In this document: positions 1,379 to 2,048 of the stretch, one piece after another
Position numbering within the stretch: the first letter of the stretch is position 1
Layout of the letters: each line of letters opens with the position of its first letter
Source: Streptomyces sp. NBC_01255
Lineage (GTDB): Bacteria > Actinomycetota > Actinomycetes > Streptomycetales > Streptomycetaceae
Assembly (NCBI RefSeq): GCF_036226445.1
Contig: NZ_CP108474.1
Span: 4,154,001-4,218,000 of the forward strand
Length of the DNA stretch: 64,000 nt
Direction of reading: 5' to 3'
Notes under the pieces: generated by a model
What the model was told of the DNA's origin: nothing
Database searches by the model: none
What the model saw: the letters and a program-made list of their open reading frames with translations, nothing else
Position numbers and translations under genes: made by a program

Positions 1379-1726
1379 GTGGCTCAGCGTGTGGTGGTCA
1401 CTCTCTCCGATGACATCGACGGCGGAGAAGCTGCTGAGACGGTCGCGTTCGGCCTCGACGGGAAGACGTACGAGATCGACCTGAATGCTGCCAATGCAAA
1501 GAAACTCCGCAAGACCCTCGCCCCCTACCTCGCCGCCGGCCGCAAGCAGCCGGCCGGAGCGAAGGCCGGGACGAGGGAGCGGGCGGGCGTCGAGACCTAC
1601 ACCCGGACCGCGCTCGCGCCCGACCCGGCGGCGGTCCGCGCCTGGGCGCAGTCCAACAAGATGGACGTGCCCGCCAGGGGCCGCATCCCGAAGAAGGTCT
1701 ACGAGGCGTTCCACGCCGCGAGCTGA
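1379..1726 (+). CDS. lsrL: Lsr2-family nucleoid-associated protein (LsrL position)
   Basis: A 115-residue Lsr2-type xenogeneic silencer, the actinobacterial counterpart of H-NS. The N-terminal oligomerisation half begins MAQRVVVTLSDDIDGG, and the C-terminal half carries the minor-groove RGR hook (residues 100-102) inside VPARGRIPKKVYEAF. The GTG at 1379 is chosen over earlier in-frame starts because it gives the canonical N-terminus and follows AGGAAAGGA by a suitable distance. Residues 51-80 form a basic linker. Streptomyces encode two paralogues, Lsr2 and LsrL; I use lsrL because, as I recall, that paralogue sits next to purS/purQ. It diverges from purS and precedes the tRNA-Gly genes. Confidence 0.93.
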   Translation: MAQRVVVTLSDDIDGGEAAETVAFGLDGKTYEIDLNAANAKKLRKTLAPYLAAGRKQPAGAKAGTRERAGVETYTRTALAPDPAAVRAWAQSNKMDVPARGRIPKKVYEAFHAAS

Positions 1727-1824
1727 CGCGAGCCGGGAGCGGATTTGCATTCCACCCCCCATGATCCGCTAGAGTCTGGAACACGCCGAGGGGCGAGGCC
1801 GCAGGGCCGAACCTCACGCAGCGT

Positions 1825-1896
1825 GCGGGTGTAGTTCAGTAGTAGAACATCCCCCTTCCAGGGGGAAGGCGCAGTGTGCAATTCCTGTCACCCGCT
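1825..1896 (+). tRNA. tRNA-Gly, anticodon TCC, with non-canonical T-arm and D-loop
   Basis: The acceptor arms GCGGGTG and CACCCGC pair perfectly, the discriminator is T, and CCA is not encoded. The anticodon arm is TCCCC-CTTCCAG-GGGGA, giving anticodon TCC at 1857-1859 (reads GGA). The D-stem GTTC/GAAC is intact, but its loop is AGTAGTA, with AG where the near-invariant G18-G19 belongs. The T-stem pairs GCAG (1871-1874) with CTGT (1885-1888), but the loop region is TGTGCAATTC, one base longer than normal. It can be drawn as a bulged T1875, a closing G1876-C1884 pair, and a loop TGCAATT in place of TTCAATT. Position 55 is therefore G instead of U. The rest of the molecule folds well, so it looks functional rather than decayed. 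Confidence 0.93.
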
Positions 1897-1975: not shown

Positions 1976-2048
1976 GCGGACGTGGCTCAGTTGGTAGAGC
2001 ATCACCTTGCCAAGGTGAGGGTCGCGAGTTCGAATCTCGTCGTCCGCT
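1976..2048 (+). tRNA. tRNA-Gly, anticodon GCC (copy 1)
   Basis: A canonical 73-nt tRNA: acceptor GCGGACG/CGTCCGC, D-loop with GG, anticodon arm TCACC-TTGCCAA-GGTGA (anticodon GCC), T-arm GCGAG-TTCGAAT-CTCGT, discriminator T, no encoded CCA. It is identical base for base to the copy at 5821-5893 and lies 79 bp after tRNA-Gly(TCC), probably in the same transcript. A strong terminator follows directly. Confidence 0.98.

Follow-up and report, generated by a model that had tools for sequence, protein, structure and literature searches.

The window, a stretch of 64,000 nucleotides of Streptomyces sp. NBC_01255 DNA, carries an altered glycine tRNA gene with a UCC anticodon, preceded by a gene of the Lsr2 family and followed by canonical tRNA-Gly(GCC) genes (Table 1). 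The altered tRNA folds as a cloverleaf under Rfam model RF00005, scoring 53.5 bits (E 1e-9; gathering score 29) against 71.8 bits for the two adjoining GCC genes. ARAGORN called four further tRNAs in the window but not this one, while it does call some relatives of the altered tRNA in other genomes; in public genomes the gene is presumably annotated as an ordinary tRNA-Gly. Glycine identity resides in C35, C36, U73 and the pairs G1-C72 and C2-G71. UCC and U73 are present in all 63 distinct sequences obtained from the family Streptomycetaceae, with an acceptor stem that begins GCG/CGC in 54 and GCA/UGC in nine (the 237 fetched family copies include repeats, and all family counts refer to the 63 distinct sequences alone).

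Table 1. Features at the altered tRNA locus, in window positions
Feature	Position	Strand	Evidence
Lsr2-family gene, GTG start, upstream of altered tRNA	1379..1726	+	Pfam PF11774, PF23359
-10-like hexamer TAGAGT	1770..1775	+	TANNGT nearby in 26/26 upstream regions (a selection; by eye)
Altered tRNA-Gly(UCC), 72 nt, U73 discriminator, CCA not encoded	1825..1896	+	Rfam RF00005 53.5 bits; R1 103.2 bits
D-loop AGTAGTA, A18 at 1841, G19 at 1842	1838..1844	+	A18 in 59/63 distinct family sequences, G18 in 4
Anticodon TCC	1857..1859	+	63/63 distinct sequences
T-arm: GCAG, bulged T (1875), G, loop TGCAATT (G55 1878, C56 1879), CCTGT	1871..1888	+	Rfam alignment and family sequences
Pair 51-63 of altered tRNA, A-U	1873 with 1886	+	63/63 distinct sequences
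Canonical tRNA-Gly(GCC), downstream of altered tRNA	1976..2048	+	ARAGORN, Rfam

An earlier note on this DNA had described a forward-strand tRNA-Gly(UCC) in which A18 replaces G18, G55 replaces U55, and G19 and C56 are kept, and this description holds. Its T-loop reads U54, G55, C56, A57, A58. The note had also counted the T region as one base longer than usual; the extra base is real, but the Rfam alignment places it not in the loop but in the T-stem, as a U bulged out between positions 52 and 53, so that the T-loop still comprises seven bases. Pair 49-65 is G49-U65, and pair 51-63 is A-U, compared with G-C in the canonical UCC, CCC and GCC tRNA-Gly of the same genome (by eye). The alteration is also specific, as the note had argued from the canonical GCC neighbours: the only other TCC gene counted in the genome is a canonical one.

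That genome yields 68 tRNA matches, and its glycine set according to ARAGORN consists of one canonical UCC gene (L002, G000:C1:5751308-5751378), one CCC gene and three GCC genes; G18, G19, U55 and G51-C63 are present in every one (by eye). L002 shares with the altered tRNA its anticodon, the acceptor stem GCGGGTG/CACCCGC, U73 and G19-C56, but differs in having G18, U55, five T-stem pairs without a bulge, G51-C63 and an encoded CCA. A canonical UCC gene was likewise found at 20 of 20 places in other genomes of the family, these places being picked from listed hits. The altered tRNA is an extra isoacceptor beside the canonical UCC gene.

The gene is almost universal in Streptomyces. BLAST with the gene and its flanking sequence hit every one of 150 Streptomyces genomes, the window's own among them, and 70 loci from the matched genomes held 82 copies in 30 distinct sequences, with a D-loop of AGTAGYA and a T-arm that is invariant except at 57, at 60 and, once, at the bulge. 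A covariance model (R1), built from these 30 sequences with the window's own among them, recovered the altered tRNA in 391 of 392 Streptomyces genomes (E 1e-18), the one miss being G559. Three stems (acceptor, D and anticodon) show paired changes: 27 cells carry two-sided changes, a number reached by none of 500 shuffles, five pairs show such changes (equalled by 6 of 500 shuffles) and 99.5% of cells are paired, while one of the five covariation measures runs the opposite way (8 further pair types vs 9.1 in shuffles). The two-sided changes and the near-complete pairing argue that the altered tRNA is kept as a folded tRNA; the T-stem, being invariant in this set, contributes no covariation evidence. 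Some species carry two or three copies in tandem, and all tandem copies read have the altered T-arm. Three tandem copies lie behind lsr2 in the Streptomyces loci L100, L103, L104, L114, L314, L323, L329, L331, L349 and L353, among which L349 belongs to a record named Streptosporangium nondiastaticum that has a Streptomyces-type locus and is probably a mislabelled Streptomyces.

Beyond Streptomyces, the distribution is confined to the family in the samples searched. With R1, which was run under the stricter filters of Infernal and models the window-type tRNA, such that a differently sequenced altered tRNA-Gly elsewhere would be invisible to it, all 31 Streptomyces of the class sample scored at least 97 bits, compared with none of 265 genomes from 40 other families (best score 73.7 bits). 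Twenty places among the best of these other hits were read and all proved to be canonical UCC or CCC genes. The possibility that this T-arm is general in actinomycete tRNA-Gly(UCC), which on the reasoning of the earlier note would undo a specialised role, is thereby rejected. The order sample gave 65 of 65 Streptomyces and 0 of 15 others; the phylum sample gave 20 of 396 genomes, all Streptomyces, in one of 245 genera, with the kinship of most of the 376 non-matching genomes being uncheckable. Within the family, 49 of 66 non-Streptomyces genomes carry the altered tRNA at 86.3 bits or more, and it is missing from 3/3 genomes of genus g115, 13/13 of g118 and 1/2 of g120. A plasmid collection contained no match, and spread on plasmids was rejected.

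Across the 63 family sequences, the extra T-stem base and A51-U63 are constant, although the bulge is displaced by one place in one g114 sequence, and U8-A14, G19-C56, U54-A58, U73 and the UCC anticodon are fixed. Pair 49-65 is a strong G-U in 58 sequences and A49-U65 in five. Positions 18 and 55 vary only together: A18/G55 stands in 59 sequences, G18/U55 in four (g106 and g109) and a mixed combination in none, with G19 and C56 kept throughout. Their joint change suggests that 18 and 55 still touch, in another form, although the pattern may rest on a single event. The four g106/g109 sequences have the bulge and A51-U63 together with normal G18 and U55, and may represent intermediates that gained the bulge before any swap at the elbow.

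The altered T-arm is predicted to be weak. Nearest-neighbour estimates, which leave out RNA modifications, give -1.3 kcal/mol for the T-arm of the window's tRNA vs -6.6 for the canonical UCC gene; the 63 family sequences range from -1.3 to -0.4 kcal/mol and 54 own-genome tRNA entries from -8.8 to -3.7, these entries being ARAGORN's list for own-genome loci, split by strand and ending, in which one tRNA may count twice and the window's two Ser tRNAs are absent. The predicted minimum-energy fold of the window's tRNA departs from the cloverleaf, which has a probability of 1.4e-5 vs 0.06 for the canonical UCC tRNA, and has a hairpin GCGC-AGU-GUGC in place of the T-arm.

An Lsr2-family gene lies directly upstream of the altered tRNA in G437, G440, G445 and G451 as well (two separate searches), and a canonical GCC gene lies downstream in 48 of the 51 named loci with this tRNA. 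A scan for the sigma-70 consensus returned no promoter for the altered tRNA; from the -10-like hexamer we infer that it probably has a promoter of its own. The 51 loci, which include Streptacidiphilus (4), Actinacidiphila (2) and Wenjunlia (1), come from 80 named loci fetched with a g118 Lsr2; the remaining 29, without the tRNA, are Peterkaempfera griseoplana and 28 records under the name Kitasatospora or Streptomyces whose Lsr2 shares 93–99% identity with the query. In g115 and g118 (the latter inferred to be Kitasatospora), 15 of 16 lsr2 loci have two GCC genes in tandem, the sixteenth leaving its contig, while in three Streptacidiphilus loci (L315, L316, L322) two GCC genes come after the altered tRNA. 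A tree of Lsr2 from 28 chosen rows (L276 dropped as no protein was found; 5 of 25 inner branches starred) joins Streptacidiphilus, which has the tRNA, to Kitasatospora and Peterkaempfera, which do not, at 97/98, leaving g106 and g109 unplaced. Given this grouping and the combination of tRNA and two GCC genes in Streptacidiphilus, the altered tRNA was most likely lost by deletion in Kitasatospora and Peterkaempfera. Replacement of the altered tRNA by a GCC gene in Kitasatospora was set aside, plain deletion being simpler given the same Streptacidiphilus arrangement. Kitasatospora walls are rich in meso-DAP, which might explain the loss. The altered tRNA is also missing from G462; its lsr2 neighbour is missing too (best Lsr2 match 52%), making an assembly gap likely there.

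The closest known counterparts are in staphylococci, where non-proteinogenic tRNA-Gly has GUGC for GTTC. Such isoacceptors of Staphylococcus aureus were reportedly characterized by Giannouli and colleagues in 2009. Three of the five S. aureus tRNA-Gly are described as having A49-U65 and A51-U63 and as lacking GG18-19, in keeping with weak binding to EF-Tu (PMC4052509), and the affinity of EF-Tu is described as depending chiefly on pairs 49-65, 50-64 and 51-63 (PMC8219837). Like the non-proteinogenic tRNAs of S. aureus as described, the Streptomyces tRNA is additional to translating ones, is altered at position 18 and has A51-U63, and a FemX-type transferase is encoded in S. aureus and in the Streptomyces genome alike. 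Measured against the same descriptions, through which alone S. aureus enters the comparison, the Streptomyces tRNA differs in keeping G19 (63/63), in a pair 49-65 that is G-U in most sequences and in the additional base of its T-stem. A further contrast is that FemX occurs in relatives of Streptomyces without the altered tRNA. The altered tRNA is real, conserved and lineage-specific, and its likeness to the staphylococcal wall tRNAs is partial and apparently convergent.

The genome of the window has two FemAB-family genes, the first of which (called FemX) has matches among solved structures, under the names Lipid II:glycine glycyltransferase and FemX. Every one of the 37 family genomes tested, the window's own among them, has a FemX match (best-match identities of 67–100%), as do 7 of 7 genomes from other families of the order (44–66%), all of which are without the altered tRNA, and 6 of 28 class genomes, again without the tRNA, one of these matches being short. 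All 20 tested genomes with the altered tRNA (own and 19 others) have FemX, an association made uninformative by the presence of FemX in every family genome tested. Conversely, 17 of the 36 other family genomes lack the altered tRNA and all keep FemX, although one, G462, is the probable assembly gap noted above. Since FemX is present in these 17 and in the seven order genomes without the tRNA, it does not require the altered tRNA, and an obligate FemX donor is ruled out; the altered tRNA can at most be a preferred, not a needed, donor. The earlier note had suggested that this isoacceptor may be the preferred donor for the wall, or a dual-use tRNA. A specific, extra isoacceptor whose altered features are conserved and partly staphylococcus-like is supported; a tie to the glycine bridge is not, and the distribution of FemX weakens the wall-donor reading. 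The copy number of FemX was considered as a correlate and discarded: a single match is found in 13 of 13 g118 genomes, yet also in several genera bearing the tRNA. Directly behind femX in the same genome lies an alanine-racemase-like gene (L229:2642-3709), with matches well below the curated cut-offs. A glycine T-box was considered as a possible partner of the tRNA; this genome gave one sub-threshold T-box match of 66 bits vs a gathering score of 93.

It is quite possible, if a little short of probable, that the altered tRNA is a working glycyl-tRNA set apart from ordinary decoding, weak on EF-Tu and destined for non-ribosomal use or for special conditions of translation. Such a tRNA would be charged by GlyRS through the retained identity positions (C35, C36, U73 and the first acceptor pairs) and would fold into an L with a remodelled elbow. 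It would be expected to bind EF-Tu poorly, as affinity depends on pairs 49-65, 50-64 and 51-63, which lie beside the bulge and at the A-U pair, and the poorly captured Gly-tRNA would then be open to enzymes outside the ribosome. The most general candidate user in Streptomycetaceae would be FemX, acting on the glycine bridge, as one possible user; the intact anticodon would suit translation too. Other Gly-tRNA users exist in the genus: DhpK and Orf11 of Streptomyces antibiotic pathways are described as FemABX-like enzymes that use Gly-tRNA (PMC12945691). The altered tRNA could supply enzymes of this type. To our knowledge, clusters of the DhpK/Orf11 type are not genus-wide in Streptomyces. A fuller scheme can be advanced as plausible though tentative, in which Streptomycetaceae evolved a dedicated EF-Tu-evading glycyl-tRNA independently of staphylococci, with the bulge as a new mark against EF-Tu and a joint A18/G55 swap, perhaps in that order, and later lost it in Kitasatospora and Peterkaempfera.

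Alternatively, the altered tRNA may still translate, as a specialised GGA/GGG isodecoder with an altered elbow that makes its use slower or conditional (as during development or under stress) and with the 18-55 contact kept in another form. This is a credible but somewhat doubtful reading. It accords with the universal retention of UCC, U8-A14, G19-C56 and U54-A58, with the three tandem copies of some species and with positions 18 and 55 never having changed singly, which suggests a kept contact but may reflect one event. Against it stand the canonical UCC gene at all 21 places examined, the predicted T-arm, weaker than that of any of the 54 own-genome entries, and Kitasatospora, which manages without the altered tRNA.

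That the gene's RNA has a role different from that of a charged tRNA, whether as a source of fragments, a processing signal of the lsr2 transcript or a switch based on the GCGC-AGU-GUGC hairpin, is unlikely. The gene does lie behind an Lsr2-family gene, and the hairpin, besides forming in the fold of lowest predicted energy for the window's tRNA, is possible in 55 of the 63 distinct sequences; it is nevertheless broken in the other eight and possible in none of the four G18/U55 forms, and no two-sided change within it was found among the 63. All arms, the anticodon and U73 are moreover kept and three stems covary, which is more than a signal needs, and the -10-like box would be the tRNA's own. 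In the window the hairpin occupies positions 1868-1879, GGCGCAGUGUGC, where it overlaps and competes with the T-arm.

It is highly improbable that the gene is a pseudogene of tRNA-Gly in the course of being lost, for although ARAGORN misses the window's copy and the gene is gone from Kitasatospora and Peterkaempfera, its retention in 391 of 392 Streptomyces genomes with compensatory changes argues that it has not decayed, and the T-arm is near-invariant and altered in every tandem copy read.

Outside staphylococci, little is known of the division of Gly-tRNA between the ribosome and the enzymes that make walls or antibiotics. This division becomes tractable in the main antibiotic-producing genus, where the altered gene is nearly genus-wide, mostly present as one copy and paired with a canonical gene for the same anticodon, and where the natural losses in Kitasatospora serve as ready controls; the A18/G55 co-change offers a clear-cut example from nature of tRNA elbow remodelling. 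In the open-access literature, none of the titles and abstract openings among the matches listed concerned an altered Streptomyces tRNA-Gly, subscription papers being outside this scope. A comparable case is the pseudo-tRNA tRNAOther of Bacillus cereus, which is described as likewise tRNA-like and outside translation, with a deletion that alters cell-wall morphology; by the same description it differs in its host and in its anticodon, CCA vs UCC (PMC3399842). Two Streptomyces papers that mention tRNA-Gly deal with an antisense RNA to the CCC gene and with binding of DasR to a tRNA-Gly gene upstream of SCO3679 (PMC8388888, PMC4398421).
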